DNA of 34,176 nt, from positions 1 to 34,176 of IMG/VR virus record IMGVR_UViG_3300017737_000036; one strand, given 5' to 3'. The notes beneath the pieces were generated by a model, which was given only the letters and a program-made list of their open reading frames with translations, had not been told where the DNA came from and did not search any database. Position numbers and translations under genes: made by a program. Position 1 is the stretch's first letter. Each line of letters opens with the position of its first letter. Below, in pieces: positions 12,151 through 34,176 of the stretch. This DNA comes from a virus.

Positions 12151-12435
12151 TTAGTCAGAATCAGAAACTGCTCCGATTGTTGTACCGTCACTAATGTCTA
12201 CGACACCAGATGCGTTAGATACGACAACGTGCATAGTAACTGTTCTTGTACCACCAGTTGCTCCATGAACAATTATCATGTCACCAACTGAAAGTTGGTC
12301 TGATAAGTCATTAAAGTAACCAGCAGCATCTACTGCTGTATGGGCATCAGTTGTTGTATAGACATACAAAGCTGGTAAATCACCTGCTCTGCCCTGTCCA
12401 GCTAATGCTCCAAATCCTGCTCTTGCATATGCCAT
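12151..12435 (-). CDS. Candidate capsid decoration protein
   Basis: This 94-residue protein starts MAYARAGFGALAGQGRAGDL and continues with beta-rich sequence (PALYVYTTTDAHTAVD, GDMIIVHGATGGTRTVTMHV). The flexible Gly/Ala N-terminus and small beta body resemble head decoration or head-fibre proteins encoded just after the capsid gene in many podophages. It has a strong AGGAGG site, lies 12 bases after the capsid gene and sits before the hairpin terminator, so it should be made in amounts near those of the capsid. Role is inferred from position and composition. Confidence 0.6.
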   Translation of the reverse strand: MAYARAGFGALAGQGRAGDLPALYVYTTTDAHTAVDAAGYFNDLSDQLSVGDMIIVHGATGGTRTVTMHVVVSNASGVVDISDGTTIGAVSDSD

Positions 12436-12447
12436 ATTATCCTCCTG

Positions 12448-13287
12448 TTATTCACGACAAGTGACTTCAACTATACCAGCTGTATCAATACCAACAGATC
12501 CAGCAGAGAACATAGAGTTCACTAGGAACGATGATTTCTCAGCAATATAGTTAATTTCAGTTTTCTTATCCATGTTAATAGCAAGACCACAAGCATTTTT
12601 ATGCCAAGCTAAACATGTACGGTCAGATGAACCATCAACAGCTAGTCCGCCTTCTGTTCTATCGCCAACCATAATGAATTTAAAACCTAAGAATGAATCA
12701 ACAGTTCCTTGAGCTAATGCTTTAGTTGTGTTGACATCAATAGTTTTTACATCACTATCGTCTAAGAACGCAGCCATGTTATTAGCATGACATAAGAAGA
12801 AACGATCTTCGGCTGGAACACCTTGTTGGTCCATTTTCTTTTTAGTTTCTAATACTTTATCAACATTTAAGTTAGTGTTAGAACCGCCAATAGAATTAGC
12901 AACTGTTAAAGATGTACCTGCTCCATCTAGTGCATCAATTACTAATTGGTCCATTCTACGACCAACAGCCATTGATACCGCTTTTACAAGCTCTGCTCTT
13001 TCGTCAAATAATACTTTGCCGTTTGTAAATATATCGCTATATTCAGCAGCATTGAAATCAGACATTGTAGCTGTTGCTTGTGTGTGTGTTAAGTTCATTG
13101 GAGTTACATCAGACTGTGGTATATGTAAATTTGCCACACCTGATCCTAACTTGTTGAACTTATAAGTATTACCTTGAACGCCACTTCTTTCACGAACTGT
13201 ACCAGCTAAAGCTCTATCGTTTTGATAGGCTTGCTTTACTTCCGCATCAAAGATGGTGACGAAACTTGTACTAATAGATGTACTCAT
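12448..13287 (-). CDS. Major capsid protein
   Basis: This 279-residue protein directly follows the scaffold and precedes the tail genes. It starts MSTSISTSFVTIFDAEVKQA and contains RSGVQGNTYKFNKLG, LVKAVSMAVGRRMDQLVID and GSVGIDTAGIVEVTC. These belong to the HK97-fold capsid type I associate with marine podophages, shorter than T7 gp10. It assembles the procapsid on the scaffold. The 160-base gap upstream is the largest in the late virion block and holds a possible promoter. GGAG lies about 8 bases before the ATG. Confidence 0.88.
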   Translation of the reverse strand: MSTSISTSFVTIFDAEVKQAYQNDRALAGTVRERSGVQGNTYKFNKLGSGVANLHIPQSDVTPMNLTHTQATATMSDFNAAEYSDIFTNGKVLFDERAELVKAVSMAVGRRMDQLVIDALDGAGTSLTVANSIGGSNTNLNVDKVLETKKKMDQQGVPAEDRFFLCHANNMAAFLDDSDVKTIDVNTTKALAQGTVDSFLGFKFIMVGDRTEGGLAVDGSSDRTCLAWHKNACGLAINMDKKTEINYIAEKSSFLVNSMFSAGSVGIDTAGIVEVTCRE

Positions 13288-19848: not shown

Positions 19849-20140
19849 AGGGATATACGTAAGGGGGTAGGCGTGGGGGGCGTATGGTCGATTACAGAAA
19901 AATGATAGTATGTGCTGTATTATTTAACATAATAACGATTATGCGAATTAATAATAATTTGTAAGTCATTGATTTTATTACATATATGATAGTATAAGCG
20001 ATTGCTAATATAGATATGTCTATTATTTCTATATATATGACTGTTTTATTTGCGCATTGGTGTTGTTTGTAATCATATATTAGGGGGTTATTTTTTTACC
20101 CTTAGTAATCCCATTATAAGTAATAGATCAAACATATATA
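19849..20140. other. Divergent intergenic control region
   Basis: About 290 bases lie between the leftward late block and the first early promoter, rich in A and T apart from two G-runs near 19860-19880. At 20006-20024 there is a 19-base block that recurs with one change beside the second early promoter (22165-22183); it holds a dyad ATAGA/TCTAT. A 26-codon frame (19884-19964) with a G-run 3 bases before its ATG could be a hydrophobic microprotein, but support is poor. I see no larger gene. Confidence 0.5.
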
Positions 20141-20202: not shown

Positions 20203-20346
20203 ATGATGATGATATTTATAGTAGGATTCGCACTTGGTTTAATCTTTACATCTATTGTACTACTGATGATTATGCAGTATCAAGACATGAAGGATTTAGA
20301 AAATAGAACAGGCAATTATGCCAAATACAATAAGAGGGTCAAGTAA
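20203..20346 (+). CDS. Small single-pass membrane protein
   Basis: This is the first early gene, 47 residues: MMMIFIVGFALGLIFTSIVL and a short Met-rich end to a membrane helix, then a charged tail (QDMKDLENRTG... KRVK). AAGAGGGT precedes the ATG. The stop overlaps the next ATG by one base. It is probably an inner-membrane protein made early; function unknown. Confidence 0.65.
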   Translation: MMMIFIVGFALGLIFTSIVLLMIMQYQDMKDLENRTGNYAKYNKRVK

Positions 20347-20579
20347 TGAATCCAATTAGAAATCCAATTAAAAGAAAACCAAACTGTAGAGGTAAAGCAG
20401 ACCAATACTTGTCTAATGAATACGACACTAAGATTATTCAAGTAAAATGTGGCACTACTGATATAGATGGCTCGACGCTTATCTGTAATAAATGTTCAGA
20501 AGAATGGATATTAAAATATCCTAATGGACTTTATGATGTGTATGGATCTGATGATGATTACAATGATAGTATTAATTAA
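20346..20579 (+). CDS. Small Cys-containing early protein
   Basis: This 77-residue protein has a basic N-terminus (NPIKRKPNCRGKADQ), then IQVKCGTTDIDG and LICNKCSEEW, and an acidic tail (GSDDDYNDS). Cysteines in CxxC spacing plus two single ones suggest a zinc-binding site. AAGAGGGTC stands before the ATG. Likely an early host-interaction or nucleic-acid-binding protein; unknown. Confidence 0.6.
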   Translation: MNPIRNPIKRKPNCRGKADQYLSNEYDTKIIQVKCGTTDIDGSTLICNKCSEEWILKYPNGLYDVYGSDDDYNDSIN

Positions 20580-20594
20580 TAAGAGGGTTAAATA

Positions 20595-20801
20595 ATGAGA
20601 AGAATATTAAAAGATAAAACAATATTTAAATGTCAAGGATATATTAATATTAAGAATAAACATATTCTATATATGTTACATAATTGGTTATATATTCATT
20701 TAGATATTATAGAAATTATTACTGATATAGACATAGAGAACTTATGTAACATATTAGCGCTGGAATCAATAAAAGATATTAAACATTACGAATACAATTA
20801 A
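20595..20801 (+). CDS. Early hypothetical protein, Ile-rich
   Basis: This 68-residue protein is unusually rich in Ile (MRRILKDKTIFKCQGYINI, LDIIEIITDIDIENLC). AAGAGGGT precedes its ATG, 15 bases after the previous gene. I recognise no domain. Its codons are even more AT-rich than those of its neighbours. Confidence 0.55.
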   Translation: MRRILKDKTIFKCQGYINIKNKHILYMLHNWLYIHLDIIEIITDIDIENLCNILALESIKDIKHYEYN

Positions 20802-20815
20802 AGGGGGTTTATAAA

Positions 20816-21079
20816 ATGTATGATTATATAGCAATTGGTGTTGATACAAATGGATATAATGATATTGATGAAGATATTAGAGTATTCGAAGCTGCTAATG
20901 ATTATGAAGCTAGGCATTATATAATTAATCACTATGACATTAGTTTACAATGGTCATTTGTTAGCAGCAAAACTGTAAGTTTAAATAAAATGTTAATTGT
21001 ATGCTCAAAACTATTAGAGGGTAGAGATCCAAAGTTCTTGAATAGATTTACAAATAATTTAATTAATAAAGGGGTTTAA
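20816..21079 (+). CDS. Early NDYEA-motif protein, copy 1
   Basis: This 87-residue protein reads MYDYIAIGVDTNGYNDID, then RVFEAANDYEARHYIINH and YDIS. The NDYEA...I...DI(S/T) stretch also occurs in the early protein at 23633-23812, so the two are likely distant paralogues. AAAGGGGG precedes the ATG. It lies 2 bases before ardA, suggesting joint expression. Function unknown. Confidence 0.6.
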   Translation: MYDYIAIGVDTNGYNDIDEDIRVFEAANDYEARHYIINHYDISLQWSFVSSKTVSLNKMLIVCSKLLEGRDPKFLNRFTNNLINKGV

Positions 21080-21081
21080 TT

Positions 21082-21618
21082 ATGATAAATACAAATACAA
21101 GAGAAAATAAAGATATACAACCACAAATATATATTGCTTGTTTAGCGTCATATAATAGTGGCATTTTACATGGTGCTTGGATTGTACCTTCAAATGATGA
21201 AGAAGAACTGCAAAAACAGATTAATGCAATTCTAAAAACATCAAAACAACCCTTTGCAGAAGAATGGGCAATACATGCTTATGATAATTTTCCTGATTTA
21301 GGAGAATATCCAAGTATTGAAAATATCTGTAAAGTACAAAATGCTATAGAACAATATGATTATGAATTAATTAATGCTTATCTCCAATATAATAATGATA
21401 TTGATTCATTAGATTCTATTGATGATTCTTATATGGGCGAATATGATTCTTTTCAAGAATATGCAGAGCAATTTTTAATGGATTGCGATGAATTCCACAT
21501 GATTCCAGATCACCTACAGTATTATTTTGATTATGAACAATACGCAAGAAATTTGCAGTATGATTATTATGTTGTCGAATCTAACAATCATGGTGTATAT
21601 ATATTTAGAAATTTTTAA
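21082..21618 (+). CDS. ardA: Antirestriction protein ArdA
   Basis: This 178-residue acidic protein matches ArdA along its length: PQIYIACLASYNSGILHGAW at the N-terminus, EEWAIHAYDNFPDLGEYPSI, IENICKVQNAIEQYDYEL, and the end FDYEQYARNLQYDYYVVESN followed by NHGVYIFRNF. ArdA dimers are bent, acidic mimics of B-form DNA that occupy type I restriction-modification enzymes. It is in the first early operon, as expected for protecting incoming DNA. Plasmid ArdAs are about 165 residues; the extra length is partly in the acidic middle. Ribosome site AAAGGGGT. Confidence 0.93.
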   Translation: MINTNTRENKDIQPQIYIACLASYNSGILHGAWIVPSNDEEELQKQINAILKTSKQPFAEEWAIHAYDNFPDLGEYPSIENICKVQNAIEQYDYELINAYLQYNNDIDSLDSIDDSYMGEYDSFQEYAEQFLMDCDEFHMIPDHLQYYFDYEQYARNLQYDYYVVESNNHGVYIFRNF

Positions 21619-21631
21619 CAGGGGATAAATT

Positions 21632-21745
21632 ATGAAAGATGTACATAACCAAAATGAAGAATATATGACCGTATTAGAAATAATAGGATCTTTTATATTA
21701 TTTGCTATGATAATATTTATAATATTTGTTATCATGTCATTTTAG
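21632..21745 (+). CDS. Small membrane protein after ardA
   Basis: This 37-residue protein has a short polar start (MKDVHNQNEEYMTVLE) and one membrane helix (IIGSFILFAMIIFIIFVIM). CAGGGGAT lies 7 bases before the ATG, 13 bases after ardA. It is the last gene before the triple hairpin, so it ends the first early operon. Function unknown. Confidence 0.65.
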   Translation: MKDVHNQNEEYMTVLEIIGSFILFAMIIFIIFVIMSF

Positions 21746-21753
21746 ATTCATTG

Positions 21754-21825
21754 ATAGCCATAAGGCTATATCCTAAGTGGCACCTATGCCACATCTTAAG
21801 CCCTTAGAAATGAGGGCTTTTTTTT
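21754..21825 (+). terminator. Three tandem tetraloop hairpins ending in a terminator
   Basis: Three stem-loops follow the first early operon. The first has stem ATAGCC/GGCTAT and loop ATAA (21754-21769). The second has GTGGCA/TGCCAC and loop CCTA (21777-21792). The third has a 9-bp stem AAGCCCTTA/TGAGGGCTT with loop GAAA (21798-21819), running into eight Ts. The third alone is a textbook intrinsic terminator. The first two could protect the RNA end, bind a protein, or be part of a small RNA. Confidence 0.85.
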
Positions 21826-22181
21826 ATCTTATATATTTGATGTGCTTATATTCTAATATTTTAATAAATTATATATTTTTATGATTTTGGTTTTGATGAT
21901 AGTACACATGGGGGGAACGGTTTTTTAATTGGTTCAACACATCTTATAACATAGCATGGTACAACATAGCATGTATTCGCTTAACAGCGAATATACACAT
22001 GCGTTGTTGTTTGGGTACGAATTTGCTATCATTCTATGCAAATGCCATTTATAAGCCTATTCGTATAAGGGGGTATGCGATGTTGCTATGTTGATGCGAT
22101 GTTAAATACAGCATGGCATATAAGTAAATGCTTATGATGCTAAGCTGAAATAATAATTTAATAATAATATAGATATTTCTA
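21826..22181. other. Repeat-rich intergenic region, candidate origin or control site
   Basis: About 360 bases without a credible gene. The octamer AACAT(A/C)GC occurs five times: plus strand at 21948 and 21963, minus strand at 22077, 22085 and 22096. A long imperfect palindrome covers about 21963-22009, with core ATTCGC/GCGAAT around TTAACA. Smaller inverted pairs are TACGAAT/ATTCGTA (22016, 22059) and ATTTGC/GCAAAT (22021, 22038). It lies between terminator and promoter, ahead of the replication genes. An origin, or a site bound by the phage's own DNA-binding proteins, is my inference. Confidence 0.5.
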
Positions 22182-22211
22182 TTGACATTTTATTATTAAT
22201 TCTAGTAATAT
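22182..22211 (+). promoter_or_regulatory. Early promoter 2
   Basis: A perfect TTGACA (22182-22187), an 18-base spacer and TAATAT (22206-22211) make the best sigma-70-type promoter I found in the window. It stands 38 bases before the first gene of the second early operon. The -10 block matches promoter 1. The dyad ATAGATATTTCTAT ends on the first base of the -35 box, where a repressor or activator could act. Confidence 0.8.
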
Positions 22212-22248
22212 ATAGGGGTAACATAAATTAAACAGAGGGGTACTCTAA

Positions 22249-22398
22249 ATGAATAATAAATACAAATTTCCATTATATAATAAATTGATGTTTAATTTTT
22301 TGTGTTGGATATATAAAGGCAATACAGAAAAACAAATAGCTATGATTTTTAAATATGGTGATCCATACGGTTTATTTGATATAGACAAATGCAATTGA
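22249..22398 (+). CDS. Small early protein, unknown
   Basis: This 49-residue protein starts MNNKYKFPLYNKLMFNFLCW and ends GDPYGLFDIDKCN. It follows promoter 2, with AGAGGGGT before the ATG. The central part is aromatic and weakly hydrophobic. No domain recognised. Confidence 0.6.
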   Translation: MNNKYKFPLYNKLMFNFLCWIYKGNTEKQIAMIFKYGDPYGLFDIDKCN

Positions 22399-22407
22399 GG
22401 TGTAACA

Positions 22408-22500
22408 ATGCACCCAATATTATTCATAAAACTAGCAATACTAATCTTGATCCCTGTAGCTGTAATCGCTATGGGGGTTGTACTTTTAATCAATAAATAA
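22408..22500 (+). CDS. 30-residue membrane peptide
   Basis: MHPILFIKLAILILIPVAVI plus a short hydrophobic end (AMGVVLLINK) makes nearly the whole protein one membrane helix. GAGGTGTAA stands just before the ATG, and the gene fills the gap between its neighbours exactly. It probably sits in the inner membrane; function unknown. Confidence 0.55.
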   Translation: MHPILFIKLAILILIPVAVIAMGVVLLINK

Positions 22501-22509
22501 GGGGGAGCG

Positions 22510-22743
22510 ATGAGTAAAGAAACAATATTTAAATACGAGCCACACGATTGCGAATACAAAATGGAAGATAATTGTCTATTTACTAGACACGATGATTCAG
22601 AAGATTGGGGTGAGGTAGATAGAGAACATTGTATCGCAGAAGGAATTAATCATTATGAAGTGTATAAACATTTTGGCAAAGAAAATCATTATGTAGATAT
22701 TTTATTTGATTATGCTTATTTATATGAGAGGGGGGAACAATGA
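22510..22743 (+). CDS. Small acidic early protein
   Basis: This 77-residue protein is strongly acidic and rich in His, Tyr and Trp (MSKETIFKYEPHDCEYKMED, RHDDSEDWGEVDREHC). AAGGGGGAG precedes the ATG; its stop overlaps the next start by 4 bases. Acidic early proteins are often inhibitors of host enzymes or DNA mimics, but nothing here proves that. Confidence 0.65.
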   Translation: MSKETIFKYEPHDCEYKMEDNCLFTRHDDSEDWGEVDREHCIAEGINHYEVYKHFGKENHYVDILFDYAYLYERGEQ

Positions 22744-23042
22744 ATAAAGAAAGAATGGATTATGTTGTAGAACAAATTTTTACAAGTTGTCATTATGTTT
22801 GTGGTTGTTTGCATTTTTACTGTCAAGATGAAGATAGTGGGCGTTATGAGGAAGATTACAACAACCGTTATGCAGTTAAAGAAGATAATGATATGGAAGC
22901 ATACGACAAATCAAATGACGGAGAAGCGTATTGGCTAGAAATGGTAGATGATATGGTCAATGAATTAGGCATTACTGAAGAAGAATTAGAGCAAGGTTAT
23001 AAATATATAAATAAACTATTTTCATATAGAGGGGGTAAGTGA
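22740..23042 (+). CDS. Acidic early protein, Cys/His-containing
   Basis: This 100-residue acidic protein has a Cys/His group near its start (SCHYVCGCLHFYC) and an acidic helical remainder (MVDDMVNELGITEEELEQGY). The cysteines and histidines could hold a metal. It starts inside the previous stop (ATGA), with GGGGGAAC as ribosome site. Unknown function. Confidence 0.65.
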   Translation: MNKERMDYVVEQIFTSCHYVCGCLHFYCQDEDSGRYEEDYNNRYAVKEDNDMEAYDKSNDGEAYWLEMVDDMVNELGITEEELEQGYKYINKLFSYRGGK

Positions 23043-23254
23043 TGAGTTATGCAAATAAACCAGTATTTGATGACAGAAGAATTTGCGAGGAGTGTGAAAA
23101 ACCATTCTTGTATGCAACAGAAATTACAGAAGAAATTGAAGGTAAGCCATATCCTTGCATACACGATGAACATTACGAGGGATTTTACTGTTGGGATTGT
23201 ATTGAAAAACTAGAGAGAGGTGAATCATGGATAATGATGAATGGTATCAACTAA
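23042..23254 (+). CDS. Small zinc-finger-like early protein
   Basis: This 70-residue protein has two CxxC pairs, ICEECEKPF near residue 15 and YCWDCIEKL near residue 50, a layout typical of small zinc ribbons or treble clefs. I chose ATG 23042, which overlaps the previous stop, over the GTG 3 bases before. AGAGGGGGT is the ribosome site. A regulator or host-protein binder is possible; unknown. Confidence 0.65.
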   Translation: MSYANKPVFDDRRICEECEKPFLYATEITEEIEGKPYPCIHDEHYEGFYCWDCIEKLERGESWIMMNGIN

Positions 23255-23277
23255 CAGGTAAAATAGGGGAGCATAAA

Positions 23278-23466
23278 ATGACTGTAGAAAATTTAATAAA
23301 ACATTTACAAAATTTAGGTAAAGAAAGACAAGATTATTCTGTAAGAGTAATAGAAGAAAATGGAAGTGATATTATAAATTCTTGGATCTATGATATTGAA
23401 GTTAGCGACAAGGGGAGTAGTGGTTACGAATTACATGGTGAAATTAGACTTATAGGGGGGGAATAG
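23278..23466 (+). CDS. Small early protein starting MTVENLIKHL
   Basis: With the start at 23278 (AGGGGAG 7 bases before) it is 62 residues: MTVENLIKHLQNLGKERQDY, SVRVIEENGSDIINSW, then a beta-rich end. Phage proteins that begin M-T-V-x-x-L-I-x-x-L are common, which supports this start. An ATG at 23227 (MDNDEW), also with a ribosome site but overlapping the previous gene by 28 bases, is the alternative. Function unknown. Confidence 0.6.
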   Translation: MTVENLIKHLQNLGKERQDYSVRVIEENGSDIINSWIYDIEVSDKGSSGYELHGEIRLIGGE

Positions 23467-23636
23467 TGACAGATAAAGATTTTATAAAAGAAGTATTTGA
23501 GATTGCATGTGGACATGGTGCGATATGTGTACCTGAAGATACAGGGTTGCCACGTGAATTTACCAAAGAAGAAGTCTTAGATAACCTTATTGAATTTAGC
23601 CATAACGCATGGAAATGGGAAGAGGGGGAAGAATGA
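23466..23636 (+). CDS. Small acidic early protein with GTG start
   Basis: This 56-residue protein reads (M)TDKDFIKEVFEIACGHG, AICVPEDTGLPREFTKEEVL, and ends HNAWKWEEGEE. It uses GTG at 23466, whose first base is the last base of the previous stop, and has a run of six Gs as ribosome site. Its stop overlaps the next ATG. No domain recognised. Confidence 0.6.
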   Translation: MTDKDFIKEVFEIACGHGAICVPEDTGLPREFTKEEVLDNLIEFSHNAWKWEEGEE

Positions 23637-23812
23637 ATAGAGTAAAAAATGTATATAAGATAGTGGCAGAAATTCCAGATTACGGATTGCATATAGCTTA
23701 TTATTCTGCTGATAATGATTACGAAGCCATGTATAAAATGATAGATAAGCATGATATAACTAAACATGATATTAAAAGTATATCGTTATCTAAAAGGGGG
23801 AATAATGACTAG
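23633..23812 (+). CDS. Early NDYEA-motif protein, copy 2
   Basis: This 59-residue protein (MNRVKNVYKIVAEIPDYG, then AYYSADNDYEAMYKMIDKHD) shares the NDYEA...I...DI(S/T) segment and a following Ser/Lys strand with the protein at 20816-21079. I chose ATG 23633, which overlaps the previous stop (ATGA) and has GAGGGGGAAG. It may form a small alpha/beta fold. Function unknown. Confidence 0.6.
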   Translation: MNRVKNVYKIVAEIPDYGLHIAYYSADNDYEAMYKMIDKHDITKHDIKSISLSKRGNND

Positions 23813-24146
23813 AGAGCAAATATTAGACCGATTAATTGGACACAAAATAAGTCTTTTTAAAGAAGATACACCGATAGATGAATTGTATCGTGTTTTAGAG
23901 TGTTACATGAGAGATAGTTATAAGGGGTACAATAAAGAATCTTTAAAAGATGAATTAGAAGATGAACTAAAGGAGGTGAATGAGCCAATAGTATATGGAT
24001 ACAACACGAAAGAAAAAAGAGAGTTTATTTGTGGTGTTAGAAATTTATGCGAATGTATAAATTCAGACGAGGGTTTTAGTGATGATTATTATGTATTTAC
24101 AACAGCACAAGAGCGAGAAGAATTTATAAATAAGGGGGAACGATGA
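23805..24146 (+). CDS. Early hypothetical protein
   Basis: This 113-residue, charged and mainly helical protein starts MTREQILDRLIGHKISLF and has an acidic stretch (LKDELEDELKEVNEP) and VRNLCECINSDEG. AAAGGGGGAAT precedes ATG 23805, which overlaps the previous stop. Unknown function. Confidence 0.6.
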   Translation: MTREQILDRLIGHKISLFKEDTPIDELYRVLECYMRDSYKGYNKESLKDELEDELKEVNEPIVYGYNTKEKREFICGVRNLCECINSDEGFSDDYYVFTTAQEREEFINKGER

Positions 24147-24481
24147 AAATATTTTATAACACATATTTTGAAAGCCAAGACGAAAGTGATTGGGCATGGG
24201 AAGATTTTGTATATGATCTAAAATATTTTGATAAATATTTGGGCAAAAAAGCATATATTAAAGGGCGTAATTTAGATTGGCGAGGATCAGAGGGTACAAA
24301 AGAATTTATTTTAAAAGACTCAAAAGATATGCTTTGGGAGTTAGTACCTGAAAACACAAATTTTAGTTTTCATATTAAGAGGGCAAGGGGTAGAAATACA
24401 TATCAGGCGATATGCTCACACCACGATTGCCCAACAGGAAGTTTTTTTAACATTTCATTTAGGGGGAACGATGCCAATTAA
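24143..24481 (+). CDS. Early hypothetical protein, aromatic-rich
   Basis: This 112-residue protein is rich in Trp, Tyr and Phe (DESDWAWEDFVYDLKYFDKY) and ends SHHDCPTGSFFNISFRGN. It reads like a compact alpha/beta domain, but I do not recognise it. GGGGGAACG precedes its ATG, which overlaps the previous stop; its own end overlaps the next gene by 11 bases. Confidence 0.6.
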   Translation: MKIFYNTYFESQDESDWAWEDFVYDLKYFDKYLGKKAYIKGRNLDWRGSEGTKEFILKDSKDMLWELVPENTNFSFHIKRARGRNTYQAICSHHDCPTGSFFNISFRGNDAN

Positions 24482-24629
24482 ATCACTACAAAATATAATC
24501 TACACCCTATTTGAGCAGGCAAAATTAGACGATCCAAGTAGGGGGGAACTGTACGAACAAGCCTACAAAGAGATCAGCAACATATTATCAGGCGCAGAGT
24601 GGGGGGAACGTGAACGAAGGAGATTATAA
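24471..24629 (+). CDS. Small early protein, helical
   Basis: This 52-residue protein reads MPIKSLQNIIYTLFEQAKLD, and ends SGAEWGERERRRL. GGGGGAACG lies right before the ATG. It overlaps the previous gene by 11 and the next by 20 bases. Two further GGGGGAAC words lie inside it, the second serving as ribosome site of the next gene. Function unknown. Confidence 0.6.
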   Translation: MPIKSLQNIIYTLFEQAKLDDPSRGELYEQAYKEISNILSGAEWGERERRRL

Positions 24630-25251
24630 GGGCGCAGTCTACAGTATCTTACCTATCAGGGTGTGTAAATTGGGCAAGAAAATTAGTAAGGGGGAACTGT
24701 TGACCTTTATCTCTATGTGTACGTTCAGCAACCGACAAGGGCTACTGTTTGCAACGTGTGAATCCATTGGCGCAAGATCAGGGCAAGACAAGAACACCGT
24801 TGCTAACAACATGGACAAGTTAAAGAAGTTAGGTTTGATGCGAGATCTAGAGAAAAAATTTCAGAAAGGGCAGCTATCTAAATGGAAAACAGGCAGACGA
24901 CAAGTGCTGTACTTGGGGGAAGGCAGAGATGAAGTACCCAACCACGAAGAACTACCAGTGGTATCTTTTAACAAGATGGATAGACAACATTTAAAAGAAC
25001 ATATCGAACAAGCAGAGCAAGAGGTCAGCATTAAACACGAACCTGTGGATATGCAGTATTTATCGGTGCTGAATGGTGCAGTATCATCAGCACTAGGGCA
25101 ATCAGTACAATACAGTTACCAAGAGTACGAAAAATACATGAGGGGGAACAACATCAAGATTACATTCGAGCAAGTATTCCCCAAAGCACGAGCATTTATC
25201 CAGCAACACAAACGATCACCAAAACTACATGAAATTATGGGGGAACTATGA
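24610..25251 (+). CDS. Winged-helix DNA-binding protein, possible replication initiator
   Basis: This 213-residue protein starts with GTG 24610 after GGGGGAAC. Residues about 28-85 form a winged helix-turn-helix: SKGELLTFISMCTFSNRQG, ATCESIGARSGQDKNTVANN, MDKLKKLGLM. This is the HTH type found in phage replication proteins of the lambda O or DnaD style. The basic wing (GQLSKWKTGRRQVLYLG) supports DNA binding. The C-terminal part is helical and linker-like. It is the first of the replication genes, downstream of the repeat-rich gap, so it could bind there. A transcription regulator is the alternative. Confidence 0.65.
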   Translation: MNEGDYKGAVYSILPIRVCKLGKKISKGELLTFISMCTFSNRQGLLFATCESIGARSGQDKNTVANNMDKLKKLGLMRDLEKKFQKGQLSKWKTGRRQVLYLGEGRDEVPNHEELPVVSFNKMDRQHLKEHIEQAEQEVSIKHEPVDMQYLSVLNGAVSSALGQSVQYSYQEYEKYMRGNNIKITFEQVFPKARAFIQQHKRSPKLHEIMGEL

Positions 25252-25802
25252 GTTTATACATATCAGAAATAGACCGAGCTGCATTGGAACGCACCAACAT
25301 GGGTAAGGAAGTCTTGCAACAGCTATCCAGGACTGAAGATAAGTACATGGAGCTACTTAAGTACGGTAGAGCAAGGGTGTTGTCGGTGTTAGAGGTAAAT
25401 TTGTACACCAAAATTAAGAAACAAGAGGATATAACGTGTCGTAACTTAGCAGAATTTTTAATTAGACCGAAACACGTACCGAAAAGGGATGCGTTAATAA
25501 CAAGTTTGAAGGCTTTATACAAGGGGTACGACATTGTGATTGTCAAAGCATTGGAATCAGGACTGGAACGTATTGACATTGATTTCTTTTCCATTACTAA
25601 AGACAACGGCGATGAAATCATGGTGGTACCAGATAGAAATACCAAGACACTGATGGAACAAGAGCATCAGGGTAAGTCGGTATTGATTTACACCATGCAA
25701 GAGCTGTGTACGTTAATCAGTAGTAATGAGATGCAGTACGAAATGAAGAAAAACTTTCAAGCAACAGTGCAGGAGTTTGATGACGAGGATATGCCGTTTT
25801 GA
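25248..25802 (+). CDS. Replication-module protein with SSB-like C-terminal tip
   Basis: This 184-residue protein starts MSLYISEIDRAALERTNMGK, has a helical middle (NLAEFLIRPKHVPKRDALIT) and a beta stretch, and ends QEFDDEDMPF. That end looks like the acidic tip of bacterial SSB proteins (DDDIPF), the docking site for many replication proteins. I see no OB-fold signature, so it may use an SSB-like tip to reach host proteins. It overlaps the previous gene by 4 bases; GGGGGAAC is the ribosome site. Function unknown. Confidence 0.6.
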   Translation: MSLYISEIDRAALERTNMGKEVLQQLSRTEDKYMELLKYGRARVLSVLEVNLYTKIKKQEDITCRNLAEFLIRPKHVPKRDALITSLKALYKGYDIVIVKALESGLERIDIDFFSITKDNGDEIMVVPDRNTKTLMEQEHQGKSVLIYTMQELCTLISSNEMQYEMKKNFQATVQEFDDEDMPF

Positions 25803-26077
25803 TACAAAAAATTAACCAAGAATTGAATTTAGAAATTGATTTATTTAACTGTAGCGAGGATGAATTTATCTATTTTTATTTAGGCTTGACTTATGAGGTC
25901 AAGAAGCAATTATCCAATGCTTTTTATAAAGGTTACACCAGCAGGAAGATTGCGAACAAGCGCCCTTTTATGACACACAAGGAAGAAAGTGGAGTGACTA
26001 GGTTAGAAATACACCCATTAGATGTGTACGAAAACAGAGGGTACATTAAAACTATTTTGCGACAGGAGCAAGTATGA
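25799..26077 (+). CDS. Small replication-module protein with TTG start
   Basis: This 92-residue protein, MIQKINQELNLEIDLFNC, then EVKKQLSNAFYKGYTSRKIA and TRLEIHPLDVYENRGY, appears to start at TTG 25799, overlapping the previous stop (TTGA); GAGGAT lies about 9 bases upstream. No other start makes a complete protein. It lacks a domain I know. Its 4-base overlap with the next gene supports it. Confidence 0.6.
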   Translation: MIQKINQELNLEIDLFNCSEDEFIYFYLGLTYEVKKQLSNAFYKGYTSRKIANKRPFMTHKEESGVTRLEIHPLDVYENRGYIKTILRQEQV

Positions 26078-26256
26078 AACTGCAAAAAGACGAGGAGTAC
26101 GTAGACAACGTACAGCTTAACATTGTGGTTCCCAAAGCAGTGCGAGAAGATTTTAAAGAAGCGTGTGATTTTAGAAGGATCAGTCAGCGCCAACAGCTAA
26201 TCTTTTTAATGCAAGACTATGTGGATGCCATACAACTAGAAAGGGAAAAATTATGA
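26074..26256 (+). CDS. Ribbon-helix-helix DNA-binding protein
   Basis: This 60-residue protein has the Arc/MetJ layout: a strand VQLNIVVPKAV, then helices REDFKEACDFRR and SQRQQLIFLMQDYVDA. Ribbon-helix-helix dimers bind operator DNA with the strand. In this place it could regulate the early operons, for instance at the dyads near the promoters, or tune replication. CAGGAG precedes the ATG. It overlaps both neighbours by 4 bases. Confidence 0.7.
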   Translation: MKLQKDEEYVDNVQLNIVVPKAVREDFKEACDFRRISQRQQLIFLMQDYVDAIQLEREKL

Positions 26257-26480
26257 TTGAAGTATTTAAAGTATTATTAGCTAAACATAGAGCTAAGTTA
26301 GCTGAACTTAATTTAAGTTTACAACTATGTGAAATAAGGGATGGTTCATCTATGTCTGATAACTTGGATAAAATTATTCAAGATATTGTGCATACTGAAT
26401 TGTATATTAATAAACTTCAAGCTATATTAGATAGCTTTGAAGCAAACAAAACTAAAGAGGGTGAAGAAAATGCTGAATGA
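26253..26480 (+). CDS. Small coiled-coil protein
   Basis: This 75-residue, mostly helical protein reads MIEVFKVLLAKHRAKLAELN, LDKIIQDIVHTELYINKLQA and an acidic end. Its heptad-like spacing of Leu and Ile suggests a coiled coil, perhaps pairing with a replication partner. It overlaps the ssDNA-binding candidate by 11 bases. No function known. Confidence 0.6.
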   Translation: MIEVFKVLLAKHRAKLAELNLSLQLCEIRDGSSMSDNLDKIIQDIVHTELYINKLQAILDSFEANKTKEGEENAE

Positions 26481-27165
26481 TTTTGGAATGGAAGGTGGGA
26501 GTCAATTCCCAAACATACTTACGTTTAATGCTAACACTGGTCAGTGGAAGTTAAGACGTGATGGTGAAACCAATGTAATTGATATGCCAAGTAAGGTTGC
26601 TATGGACTTAGAGGTGTTTCAAAAAGGTTGGAATCTAATCTTAAAAGGGCAAGCACCACAATCACAGATGGTTAAGTACGACAAGCCATTTCCTGTTAAG
26701 CCTGGTGAGGAATTTAAGAAAACATTTTGCATTAGACTGTATGCTAAAGACATTGGTCTGTGTGAGTTTGGTTCCAACAGTGGTATGGTAGGACAATCAA
26801 TACAAAAATTTTTTAATACTTACTTAGAAGGTAGACCTGATGACAAACAGATACCAGTCGTAGCTATCAAAGAAAACGGTAGTGCAGGTGAATGGTTTGT
26901 ACCTAATCTTGAAGTGATTAAATACGTAGATAGACCTGAAGGATTGACTGAAATTAATGTCACTGAAACAGTAGATTTATCTATGCCTGGAAAGCCTAAC
27001 GAAAACCAGTTTGATGATGATAATATAGATGTATCACCACACATGGATGACAGATTGGGTAAGGATAGCAAAAAAAAGAAAGCAATACCTTACACTAAGG
27101 AAGAAGTGGATGCTGAGATGGCAAAACTAGATGCTTCATTAGGTATAGATGACGATGAGTTCTAA
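26470..27165 (+). CDS. Candidate single-stranded DNA-binding protein
   Basis: This protein has 231 residues from ATG 26470 (MLNDFGMEGGSQFPNILTFN), with GAGGGTGAAG before it. A beta-rich body (WNLILKGQAPQSQ, KTFCIRLYAKDIGLCEFGSN, NGSAGEWFVPNLEVIKYVD) is followed by an acidic/basic linker and the tail GIDDDEF. An OB-like body with an acidic tail ending in Phe is the plan of T7 gp2.5 and bacterial SSB. It sits right before the primase-helicase, whose start it overlaps by 17 bases. Related proteins beginning DFGMEGGS are, as I recall, found in alphaproteobacterial phages. Confidence 0.68.
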   Translation: MLNDFGMEGGSQFPNILTFNANTGQWKLRRDGETNVIDMPSKVAMDLEVFQKGWNLILKGQAPQSQMVKYDKPFPVKPGEEFKKTFCIRLYAKDIGLCEFGSNSGMVGQSIQKFFNTYLEGRPDDKQIPVVAIKENGSAGEWFVPNLEVIKYVDRPEGLTEINVTETVDLSMPGKPNENQFDDDNIDVSPHMDDRLGKDSKKKKAIPYTKEEVDAEMAKLDASLGIDDDEF

Positions 27166-28978
27166 TGATATTAATTGGAAGGACTACATCTTACCAGTAG
27201 CCCAAGATATATTTGGTGAACCAACTAGTCAAAGCAATGACATGATAAGGTTCGGTGCCAAAGGATCTAAGGTTATCAACACCAACAGTGGTACGTTTTA
27301 CGATCACGAGAATGGTATTGGTGGTGGATGTATTGATTTGTTACGACATTATTACCCTGATGAAAAACCCATCAAGGTATTGCAAGAACGGTATGGACTG
27401 GAGCAGAACCCCCAAAACGTTAGTACCCCCTCTGCCCAGTCTGTACTCTTGGCACAGTACGATTACACTGACGAGAAAGGCAGGGTGTTGTATCAGAAGT
27501 TACGTATGGAACCCAAAGATTTTCGTTGGAAATCAGACAAAGGTTACACGTTGAGTGGGGTAGAACGTGTGCCTTACGCCTTGCATGAAGTGGTCAAAGC
27601 AGGGAACAAGTTTATCTTTTTATGCGAAGGTGAAAAAGATGCTGACACTTTACGTATGCGTGGCATGATTGGCACAACATTCGGTGGTGCCAGTGATATG
27701 CCTGATGAATGTATGCCTTACTTTAAAGACAAGCGTGTGTTTATTATAGGAGATTACGACAAGGCAGGGATGAAACGAGTACGTGAATTGTACGGTAAAC
27801 TAAAACCCATAGCTAAAGTAGTCAAGCACTGTTGGCTAGAAGGACAAGGTGAAAATTGCAATGACATTACCGATTGGTTGGATGCAGGACACACCATAGA
27901 AACATTAAAGCAATTAGTCAAAAAATGTCCAGAAAATTTTGAGGAAATGGACATAGAACCTAATTATCGTTTTATGACCTATGATGATATTATGACCATG
28001 CAACCACCTAAGTTTTTAGTGAATGGTTTTTTACAAGAAAACAGTTTAGCAATGATATGGGGACACAGTGGCAGCTACAAATCCTTTATAGCACTGGACT
28101 TTGCTTTGTGTATTGCAACAGGTAAAGACTTTCATGGTAACAGTGTCAGTCCAGGTGCAGTGTTGTACGTAGCAGCAGAAGGATCTAGTGGTTTTAAAAA
28201 CAGAACTACTGCATGGCATGAGCATTACCAAAAGAAGATTGATAACTTTTACTTGATACCAATGGCATTGGATATCAATGAAGAAAGAACGATGGATGAT
28301 TTGCTAATGGATGTAGGCATGTATCGATTGCAACCTAAATTAATAGTGGTTGACACGTTAGCTAGGTGCAGTGGTGGCAGTGAAGAAAACAGCGCAACTG
28401 AAATGTCTAAGATTATTAATAACTTAGATAAGTTTCGTGAAGCCACAGGTGCAACGTGTTTGATTGTACATCACAGTGGTAAAAGTGGCAGTCAGTATCG
28501 TGGATCATCTGCTATATATGCTGCGATGGATACATCTATACAGGTAGCAAAAGACGATATGTATTGCACACTAACGTCAGACAAGATGAAAGATTGTGAG
28601 CCGTTTGAACAGATGCAGTTTGAAATGCAGAAGATAGATTTTTTAGGTGGGCAATCATTAGTAGCTACCATTGATGACAATCCTAATCGCATGACCAAGC
28701 ACCAAGAGCTGTTAGATTTAATGGTTAAGATGTTATTGAATGGTAATAGTAGTAGTCATGCTGATGTACCTAAAGGACAACTAACCATCACACGTAGCGA
28801 TTTACGAGAACAAGCATTGGAATTGTTTGATGGGTTAGGCAGCACCAAAGCTAAAAACTTTAGTAAAGTATTAGAAAAATTAATGGCAGACAACAAAGTA
28901 TTGTTTGCAGGATCAGCTAAAGGTAAACAATATTTATGGTTACCAAAACAACAAGAAGAAAACACCAACCAATTTTAA
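27149..28978 (+). CDS. Primase-helicase with TOPRIM and RecA-like ATPase domains
   Basis: This 609-residue protein combines priming and unwinding. Residues about 40-70 (TFYDHENGIGGGCIDLLRHY) replace the primase zinc domain but have only one Cys. The TOPRIM domain has FIFLCEGEKDADTL (155-168) and the acidic pair in IIGDYDKAG (199-207). The RecA-like part has Walker A GHSGSYKS (305-312), Walker B LIVVDT (398-403) and IVHHSGK (439-445), as in RepA/AAA_25 helicases. The last 100 residues look like a winged helix. With no DNA polymerase gene in the window, it may load or feed the host polymerase. Start at 27149 or 27155. Confidence 0.9.
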   Translation: MTMSSNDINWKDYILPVAQDIFGEPTSQSNDMIRFGAKGSKVINTNSGTFYDHENGIGGGCIDLLRHYYPDEKPIKVLQERYGLEQNPQNVSTPSAQSVLLAQYDYTDEKGRVLYQKLRMEPKDFRWKSDKGYTLSGVERVPYALHEVVKAGNKFIFLCEGEKDADTLRMRGMIGTTFGGASDMPDECMPYFKDKRVFIIGDYDKAGMKRVRELYGKLKPIAKVVKHCWLEGQGENCNDITDWLDAGHTIETLKQLVKKCPENFEEMDIEPNYRFMTYDDIMTMQPPKFLVNGFLQENSLAMIWGHSGSYKSFIALDFALCIATGKDFHGNSVSPGAVLYVAAEGSSGFKNRTTAWHEHYQKKIDNFYLIPMALDINEERTMDDLLMDVGMYRLQPKLIVVDTLARCSGGSEENSATEMSKIINNLDKFREATGATCLIVHHSGKSGSQYRGSSAIYAAMDTSIQVAKDDMYCTLTSDKMKDCEPFEQMQFEMQKIDFLGGQSLVATIDDNPNRMTKHQELLDLMVKMLLNGNSSSHADVPKGQLTITRSDLREQALELFDGLGSTKAKNFSKVLEKLMADNKVLFAGSAKGKQYLWLPKQQEENTNQF

Positions 28979-28987
28979 GGAAAAATT

Positions 28988-30004
28988 ATGAAAAAAATTA
29001 ACGACAAAGGTTTTGGCAAGTTATCACCTGATGACATGTTGAGTGCATCACAAATGCCTTATTTATTTGGAACGCCACACACTGTGTTGCAACAGATAAG
29101 AGATGTAAGAGCAGGGACTTATCAACGACCAGAGTTTAGTGAGAAAATGGAAGAACGTATGGCAATGGGTAACATACTGGAAGGCACCATCAACGAGCTA
29201 ACCAAAGAAGCATTAGACATAGATATTACTTACCCTATAACCGAAGTAATGAGCAAAGAACTAGGCTTAGATTCAAACAACAAACCGTATGATTTGTATG
29301 CAAGTTTAGATGCTATCGCTTATATTAAAAAAGCTACTATGGTTGTACCGATTGAAGGCAAAGTATATACCCCACAAGATGACATAATAGAAAATGTGGT
29401 GGGTAAGATGGTCGTTGAATACAAGAACATGCAAGGTCGACCATACGATTCAGTCAATGAATTAAGGTTAGAACCCTACGGTCGTGGCTATTTACAAGCT
29501 GAATGTCAAGCCTGGATTGCAGATGCAGATTATTTATGTGTGTCTATTTTATTTAACGGTAATGATCACCGTTGTTATGTGATGCCTACCAGTGAATTTA
29601 TACAAACTGAAATTATTAAAAAAGCACATGTATTTTATCAGCATCTTGATGACGGAACATTATACAATCCTGTTGACATTGAAACGATGGCAGCGAAATA
29701 CAATCGTGTTAATTACAATGAGCCAGTAACATTGGATAACAAGATGGAAGATATTGTGAATCAATATAATATTTTTAAGCAAGATAAATTAGTAGCTGAA
29801 ACAGAAATGGAAAAGTTACAGATGCAAATGATTGAAGCGTTGGCTGACAATGAGATTGGACAAGTCAATACTAAGCAAGGTTTAATTCAATTAGAACGTA
29901 AGGTACGTAACTACAAGCCACAACCTGAGAAGTTTGTAGCTGCTAAAGAAGCTAGAAGTATTAGAGCTAAGACGGTTACAATTAAAAATCTTTTGGAGTA
30001 TTAA
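28988..30004 (+). CDS. YqaJ-type viral exonuclease
   Basis: This 338-residue protein has the YqaJ (lambda Exo-like) PD-(D/E)XK nuclease signs: GNILEG (Glu 65), SLDA (Asp 108), VVEYKNMQG (Glu 144 and Lys 146), then GYLQAECQAWIADADYLCVS. Such enzymes digest one strand for recombination, or degrade host DNA for nucleotides. A coiled region (KQDKLVAETEMEKLQMQM) and a basic end follow. AAGGAAAAATT precedes the ATG, 9 bases after the primase-helicase. I see no Bet/Erf-type annealing partner; the SSB-like protein may stand in for it. Confidence 0.88.
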   Translation: MKKINDKGFGKLSPDDMLSASQMPYLFGTPHTVLQQIRDVRAGTYQRPEFSEKMEERMAMGNILEGTINELTKEALDIDITYPITEVMSKELGLDSNNKPYDLYASLDAIAYIKKATMVVPIEGKVYTPQDDIIENVVGKMVVEYKNMQGRPYDSVNELRLEPYGRGYLQAECQAWIADADYLCVSILFNGNDHRCYVMPTSEFIQTEIIKKAHVFYQHLDDGTLYNPVDIETMAAKYNRVNYNEPVTLDNKMEDIVNQYNIFKQDKLVAETEMEKLQMQMIEALADNEIGQVNTKQGLIQLERKVRNYKPQPEKFVAAKEARSIRAKTVTIKNLLEY

Positions 30005-33143: not shown

Positions 33144-34176
33144 ATATCATCTCCTGTGTCAGCGACACTGTTTCCTGAATTGTAATAGTTTCAGGTATCA
33201 TTTGCAAATAGACCATACTAGCAATGCTTATTTCCCCCAAGGGATCAGCACTAATACTAGGTTCTTTACTGTCAGCCACAGGTTTGTTGACTTTGGCAAC
33301 GGTTTTGGATTGTGGTTTTTCTTCACTCTTTTCTGTGGTGGTTTTTTTGGTGTTGCTGTCTTTTTTCTTTTTGCTAGTATTTTCTTTTTGGTTATTGTCT
33401 GGCTCATCTATTTTCTCCTTTGCATCAGCAAGGTCTTGTTCAACATTAGGTTCTTTCAATTCTTCAGGTTGTTCATCTATTTCAGATTCAACATCAACGT
33501 CAACTTCAACGATTTCTTCAATAGCATCGTTAACTGGTATTTCTTGTATTTCTTCTACAACTTCTATCTCTGGCATATCTACAGGCAACTCAATGTTCAT
33601 TGATATTTCTGGTAATTCAATATCCATTGATATTTGTGGTATTTCAGGTATGTCCATAGCTACAGGATCTAAGATAATATCATTAATAACTTCTGTTTCT
33701 AACGACAAGCCTTCAATGACAGTTTCTTCAATAACTACAATAGGCTCTATAATCTCAGGCTCTACTACTACAATAGGTTCTACTACAATAGGTTCTATAA
33801 TTACAGGTGCAATGTATTCTTCAATAGTAAAAGTAAAACTAATGTTATCAACAATAGGTCCATACCAGTTGCTACTGTTGCCTGTGTCATCTCCTGCAAT
33901 ATTTAGGTTGACATCTAGGTCATTGGTATTAAAGGTAGCAACAACTTTTTCAGTAAAAGAATAATCATTCCACCCATCTTCATAAGGTACAGCAGCAACA
34001 TTACTAATTATTTCTGTGGTATCTGTTGATGATAAAGTTATGGTACTAGTAATAGTATCGTCTGCTCCAGCTGTACACCATTGACTGCCTGTGTTACCGC
34101 AACCAATACTTTGATAACCCATCTGTATTTCTTTAATAATATAATTCTCTGGAACATTTGATATGTCTACGTCTTG
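33016..34176 (-). CDS. Secreted jelly-roll-like protein, C-terminal part (starts at 354 on the circle)
   Basis: This is the rest of the 463-residue exported protein; bases 34054-34176 are the duplicate of 1-123. After the N-terminal beta domain (TITSTITLSSTDTTEIISNV, FTFTIEEY) comes a long low-complexity region of Glu, Pro, Val and Ile (EPIVVEPIVVVEPEIIEPIV). A Lys/Thr-rich linker (KENTSKKKKDSNTKKTTTEK) follows, then a C-terminal domain (VYLQMIPETITIQE, FTSSATYDSLISSSNSRW). The rod-like middle could span the periplasm or hold two ends apart. The last 128 bases overlap the next gene. Function unknown. Confidence 0.8.
   Translation of the reverse strand, partial: QDVDISNVPENYIIKEIQMGYQSIGCGNTGSQWCTAGADDTITSTITLSSTDTTEIISNVAAVPYEDGWNDYSFTEKVVATFNTNDLDVNLNIAGDDTGNSSNWYGPIVDNISFTFTIEEYIAPVIIEPIVVEPIVVVEPEIIEPIVVIEETVIEGLSLETEVINDIILDPVAMDIPEIPQISMDIELPEISMNIELPVDMPEIEVVEEIQEIPVNDAIEEIVEVDVDVESEIDEQPEELKEPNVEQDLADAKEKIDEPDNNQKENTSKKKKDSNTKKTTTEKSEEKPQSKTVAKVNKPVADSKEPSISADPLGEISIASMVYLQMIPETITIQETVSLTQEMIYEQDIGAFTSSATYDSLISSSNSRWLRMVDVRPKHTFSSYGR
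34054..34176. repeat. Terminal overlap repeat, right copy
   Basis: This is an exact copy of bases 1-123. The coding frame of the minus-strand gene at 33016-34053 continues at base 1-354 without change, so the genome closes at this overlap. Confidence 0.95.

Follow-up and report, generated by a model that had tools for sequence, protein, structure and literature searches.

A conserved non-coding element of iterons and a large hairpin, possibly a replication origin and control region organised by a ribbon-helix-helix protein, in an uncultured marine phage

Upstream of the replication operon of an uncultured marine phage, we identified a conserved non-coding element of ~280 bp that combines short iterons with a large hairpin, keeps its layout among relatives and co-occurs with a gene for a ribbon-helix-helix (RHH) protein. 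Judging by the sequence comparisons, there is about an even chance that this element serves as a replication origin and control region and that the RHH protein organises it through the mechanism proposed below. The origin of an uncultured marine phage is seldom pinpointed, and the element provides both a precise site and a candidate binding protein in such a phage.

Genomic context

The window, that is, the whole stretch of DNA analysed here (34,176 nucleotides), has identical ends, bases 1–123 being the same as bases 34054–34176, by which it appears to be a complete, circularly closed genome of 34,053 bp. Its TerL protein is 63% identical to TerL of Methylophilales phage MEP301. The structural genes are located on the minus strand up to TerS (19848), and the early genes on the plus strand from ~20,346 to 30,004; the early region encodes an ArdA antirestriction protein, a winged-helix O-like/DnaD-like protein, an RHH protein, a primase-helicase and a RecE-like exonuclease. 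A search of genome contigs with the primase-helicase retrieved distant matches only and no close relative. The contigs of the relatives L010, L013, L027 and L035 start at most ~300 bp from TerS; a physical end of the genome might lie there, close to the divergent promoter region, or the assembly may have broken at this point. The genes referred to below are the following.

21082–21618, ArdA antirestriction protein (PF07275, E = 1.8e-35), encoded in the operon that immediately precedes the element
24610–25251, plus strand, winged-helix O-like/DnaD-like protein, candidate initiator (PF13730 at 5.7e-6, PHROGs, AlphaFold winged helix)
26074–26256, plus strand, ParG/Arc-like RHH protein, candidate iteron-binding protein (profiles, AlphaFold, co-occurrence)
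27149–28978, plus strand, primase-helicase of the replication operon

Architecture of the element

The initial annotation had placed a non-coding block of repeats between a terminator and a promoter. Both flanking signals were recovered by a pattern scan, and no open reading frame of at least 60 amino acids extends over the block. The parts of the element and its flanks are listed in their order along the window.

21798–21827, plus strand, intrinsic terminator closing the upstream ArdA operon (stem 21798–21819, AAGCCCTTAG/ATGAGGGCTT, and a T-run)
21894–21920, conserved block TGATGATAGTACACATGGGGGGAACGG, left edge of the element (alignment of five homologous loci)
21946–21956, minus strand, iteron (TGCTATGT on that strand; repeat search, spacing)
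21960–22018, large imperfect inverted repeat or hairpin with an iteron in its left arm (fold rank, compensatory changes)
21963–21971, minus strand, iteron (TGCTATGT on that strand) in the left arm of the hairpin (repeat search, spacing)
22025–22052, plus strand, first direct iteron array, eroded (TGCTATCA, TTCTATGC, TGCCATTT; alignment, spacing)
22076–22103, plus strand, second direct iteron array, TGCGATGT-TGCTATGT-(3 bp)-TGCGATGT, with spacings of 8 and 11 (repeats, spacing)
22109–22147, second, smaller hairpin CAGCATGGCATATAAGTAAATGCTTATGATGCTAAGCTG (sequence, fold)
22169–22181, invariant palindrome ATAGATATTTCTA abutting the −35 box (alignment)
22182–22211, plus strand, sigma-70-like promoter of the early/replication operon, TTGACA-18-TAATAT (pattern scan, alignment)

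Five copies of the octamer AACAT(A/C)GC had been reported between 21948 and 22103, and they are present at precisely these places: 21948(+), 21963(+), 22077(−), 22085(−) and 22096(−). The whole window contains eight copies of AACATMGC versus 2.3 expected, and 200 dinucleotide shuffles of the window yielded a maximum of three octamers per 156 bp, versus the five observed. The natural unit is rather the 8-bp TGCNATGT (reverse complement ACATNGCA), which is accompanied by degenerate copies; the functional unit is larger than the block and covers ~21,900–22,180. The first direct array is intact in L003, L004 and L012, where two to three iterons are located 63 bp before the second array. Short repeats are thus clustered in non-coding DNA near the replication genes, as is characteristic of iteron origins.

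The palindrome noted earlier is also genuine. Its core (21974–21997) reads GTATTCGC-TTAACA-GCGAATATAC and is extended by the outer arms GCATG/CATGC and ACAAC/GTTGT; the resulting hairpin is asymmetric, with a 4-nt bulge on the 3′ side. Scored as single-stranded DNA, it is the second most stable of 3411 70-nt windows, preceded by the upstream terminator. The length of its perfect stem is by itself not unusual for AT-rich DNA, and only fold energy, position and iterons taken together set the hairpin apart. A de novo scan for at least six two-strand copies of any 8-mer per 300 bp combined with a strong hairpin returned the block as the sole place in the window, and the homologous place as the sole one in G001. 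Under the same settings, two places were found in G004 (L120), one being the homologous block and the other lying at ~12301–12600, with many two-strand copies of 8-mers.

The palindrome next to the promoter, TAGATATNTCTA at ~22170–22181, has a second copy at 20011–20022 in the divergent TerS/early intergenic region, and with at most one mismatch it was matched 10 times versus 1.66 expected. It is a candidate operator common to the early promoters.

Conservation among relatives

Repeats and hairpin are kept in five close homologous loci (L005, which is near-identical, L002, L003, L004 and L012), and the same layout recurs with other sequences farther out, in agreement with the conservation anticipated for a functional site. 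In the alignment, an invariant order was observed: the terminator, which is conserved in relatives, the TGATAGTACA block, an iteron, the hairpin, the direct arrays, the second hairpin and the palindrome, followed in the close loci by a TTGACA box, a −10 box and a conserved leader. The −10 box is perfect in L003 and L004, where the promoter reads a perfect TTGACA-17-TATAAT. At the position of the smaller hairpin, a hairpin is likewise present in L002, L003, L012 and L021. Within the large hairpin, the CGC/GCG pair of the window is replaced by CAC/GTG in the other four loci, and GCATG/CATGC by TCACC/GGTGA in L012, so that pairing is kept while the letters change.

Among more distant relatives (L021, L022, L023, L025 and L026; TerL 83–86%, O-like protein ~30% where present), the gap before the early genes contains the iteron TGTCNTTG instead of TGCNATGT, with the order of parts unchanged, and the hairpin core sequences are unrelated in L021, L022, L023 and L026. 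In each of the ten loci, none of 100 shuffles reached the observed iteron cluster. The same-strand spacing is 8 bp in 10/10 loci, 11 bp in six and 62–63 bp in five of them. The hairpin ranks first to third by fold in six loci and fifth in L003, and its centre is separated from the −35 box by 179–203 bp in seven loci and by 238 bp in L021; the same pattern found no −35 box in L022 or in the truncated L025. A nucleotide search of GenBank phages with the block gave no match, and a cluster scan of MEP301 (63% TerL) did not find the element.

The RHH protein as a candidate iteron ligand

The family profile of the RHH protein retrieves the ParG structure 1p94 (E = 2.7e-4); a PDB sequence search with the window protein alone found nothing. 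Pfam ParG matches four of the ten family members, two of them above the curated cut-off, and the AlphaFold model resembles the structures of CopG, ParG and Arc with weak E-values. On the predicted DNA-reading strand, Gln14 and Asn16 are present in all ten members, and at the next exposed position the TGCNATGT group has Val, the TGTCNTTG group Ala or Ser. The family profile is matched in 5/5 records with the element and in 0/8 related records that lack it, several of these eight being fragments; although this count is confounded by shared ancestry, it strengthens the earlier suggestion of the RHH protein as a possible ligand.

The arrangement of the repeats points in the same direction. Short contiguous units in both direct and inverted orientation, spaced by 8 bp in every locus, together with a cognate RHH protein encoded nearby, are what is found in operator arrays of MetJ, Arc and ParG. 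MetJ uses 8-bp boxes, and the half-sites of Arc are 11 bp apart. RHH proteins recognise uninterrupted runs of short, non-palindromic repeats close to promoters, irrespective of repeat orientation, as exemplified by omega of pSM19035 with its 7-bp units (PMC9499535), and ParG binds arrays of degenerate boxes (PMC7308502).

A possible origin and its proposed mechanism

The initial suggestion of a replication origin or control site is reasonable in view of the conserved repeats, hairpin and layout, from which we infer an origin function; the skew signal that would have supported it is absent. The switches in GC skew coincide with the reversals of gene orientation at ~19.9 kb and 30 kb; there is none at 22 kb, and neither gene nor third-position skew shows a consistent sign change across the block. 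GC skew is a supporting sign rather than a strict requirement for an origin, and a weak one in phages. The DnaA boxes of a DnaA-dependent origin were not found within 900 bp of the block, the nearest being at 23093. The spacers and the promoter are AT-rich, and an AT-rich stretch at 21820–21890 is absent from L003, L004 and L012; hence, no conserved unwinding element is proven.

In the proposed mechanism, the 8-bp iterons of the arrays and of the dyad arms would be occupied by several adjacent dimers of the ParG/Arc-like RHH protein encoded in the operon, and the resulting nucleoprotein complex would fold or extrude the hairpin. Replication would then be initiated at this site by the winged-helix O-like protein and the primase-helicase. 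The upstream terminator and the outward-facing promoter would keep the site free of transcription, and occupancy by the RHH protein would also feed back on the promoter.

An unlikely, more far-reaching version of this proposal is an RHH-built phage origin with 8-bp iterons in the hairpin arms, in which layout and fold are selected while the sequences drift, and which replaced a lambda-type origin in one lineage. To our knowledge, an RHH-organised phage origin has no precedent. The combination of a terminator, a hairpin with iterons in its arms, 8/11-bp arrays, a promoter and an RHH gene can serve as a rule in searching for further elements.

Alternative explanations

A purely regulatory operator or enhancer is the main rival and a serious alternative, although we consider it somewhat unlikely. 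The RHH protein would then occupy the arrays and the dyad to control, as a repressor or an activator, both the early promoter and its own operon, like CopG, Arc, ParG and omega, without any role in an origin. This agrees with the position of the arrays just upstream of a strong promoter, with the RHH gene being inside the operon and with the common autoregulatory function of RHH proteins that have such arrays (PMC9499535, PMC5016525, PMC7308502). On the other hand, the arrays of the window end 79 bp before the −35 box and do not overlap the promoter, which is abutted by a separate invariant palindrome; a simple operator needs no large hairpin, and the cluster scan of the genome gave no other candidate origin. 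Another counter-proposal is that the O-like protein, not the RHH protein, might bind the iterons. The element would in this case be an iteron origin of the lambda/SPP1 kind with an unrelated RHH protein, which we regard as improbable. The O-like gene is indeed located upstream of the primase-helicase gene, and tandem repeats lie just after the gene of more distant O-like homologues (L057, L058 and L066). However, relatives that lack the element also encode members of the O-like family, in phages of the L066 type a distinct lambda-O gene carries iterons of its own, and abutting units of 8 bp are short in comparison with known O iterons.

That the dyad is the stem of a structured non-coding RNA transcribed from the region is very improbable. 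Such an RNA would be expected to show the observed compensatory stem changes, the bulge that all loci have on the same (3′) side and the RNA folding z-scores of −2.3 and −3.2, but there is no Rfam match at the gathering threshold and no plausible antisense promoter. Moreover, the left arm begins ~13 bases after the terminator T-run in L021 and ~22 bases after it in L023, leaving little or no room for a promoter, which speaks against a separately transcribed RNA. A form of this RNA with long-range pairing between left and right iterons (AACATAGCA/TGCTATGTT) was rejected: L002 and L012 preserve the iteron consensus but not these pairs, a pattern that suits repeats bound by protein and not a single large RNA helix. 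Least probable of all is a centromere-like partition site of type Ib (ParG-like) serving a plasmid-like lifestyle. The RHH protein is ParG-like and the site resembles parH/parS arrays; nevertheless, the ParA/ParF ATPase of such a system was looked for in the records with the element and is absent from 5/5 of them, making a partition system unlikely.

Comparison with known systems

In Bacillus phage SPP1, which has a dedicated origin-binding protein, oriR consists of direct repeats in non-coding DNA flanked by transcription signals (PMC6316719), and the element is similarly intergenic, bracketed by such signals and equipped with direct repeats. In SPP1, gp38 iterons are combined with an AT-rich unwinding element, and gene 38 contains a second origin; the element, by contrast, has units of 8 bp and a large hairpin, is accompanied by a conserved RHH protein and has no proven unwinding element. 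With lambda-type origins it shares an O-like winged-helix protein and iterons; in lambda the iterons are inside the O gene, whereas in the window they lie ~2.5 kb upstream of the O-like gene.

The parS site of pSM19035 (bound by omega) and the parH/operator site of TP228 (bound by ParG) likewise consist of close short non-palindromic repeats in both orientations near promoters, and the RHH protein of the window shares its ParG similarity with these array-binding systems. In contrast to them, the element has no ParA/ParF, contains a large dyad and is located in a phage replication region; its unit measures 8 bp, whereas theirs are 7 bp long or degenerate tetramers. The origin of the PLE satellite (RepA_N initiator; PMC7145576) also has iterons in a non-coding region and a DnaD-like winged helix in its initiator, which belongs to another family.

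Lambda-O-type initiators in relatives without the element

No iteron family was found in the O-like gene region of the window (24300–25400), where a lambda-type origin would have its iterons, and no homologue of the lambda-O-type gene was found in the window group. Three relatives without the RHH gene and without the element (L061, L064 and L066) possess an additional initiator gene of the lambda-O type, which in L066 matches PF13730 (6.8e-17) and a PHROG for replication initiation (3e-24). This gene contains three copies of a ~22-bp palindromic repeat (GGTGCTACCCCCGAGGGTGGCAC) at L066:3785–3848, L061:4425–4490 and L064:3960–4020, and these in-gene iterons are a clear origin candidate in those phages. 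The presence of a lambda-O-type initiator with in-gene iterons in these relatives, which lack the element, fits a replacement of the origin, and the simplest account would be that the function of origin passed to the intergenic element. It suggests that related podoviruses swapped a lambda-type origin for another kind, possibly one organised by an RHH protein.

In L057 (7610–7760) and L058 (3618–3780), which have no RHH gene, tandem repeats in 7-bp phase (AATATAAAATGCAC...) are located between the O-like gene and TerS, immediately after the former.
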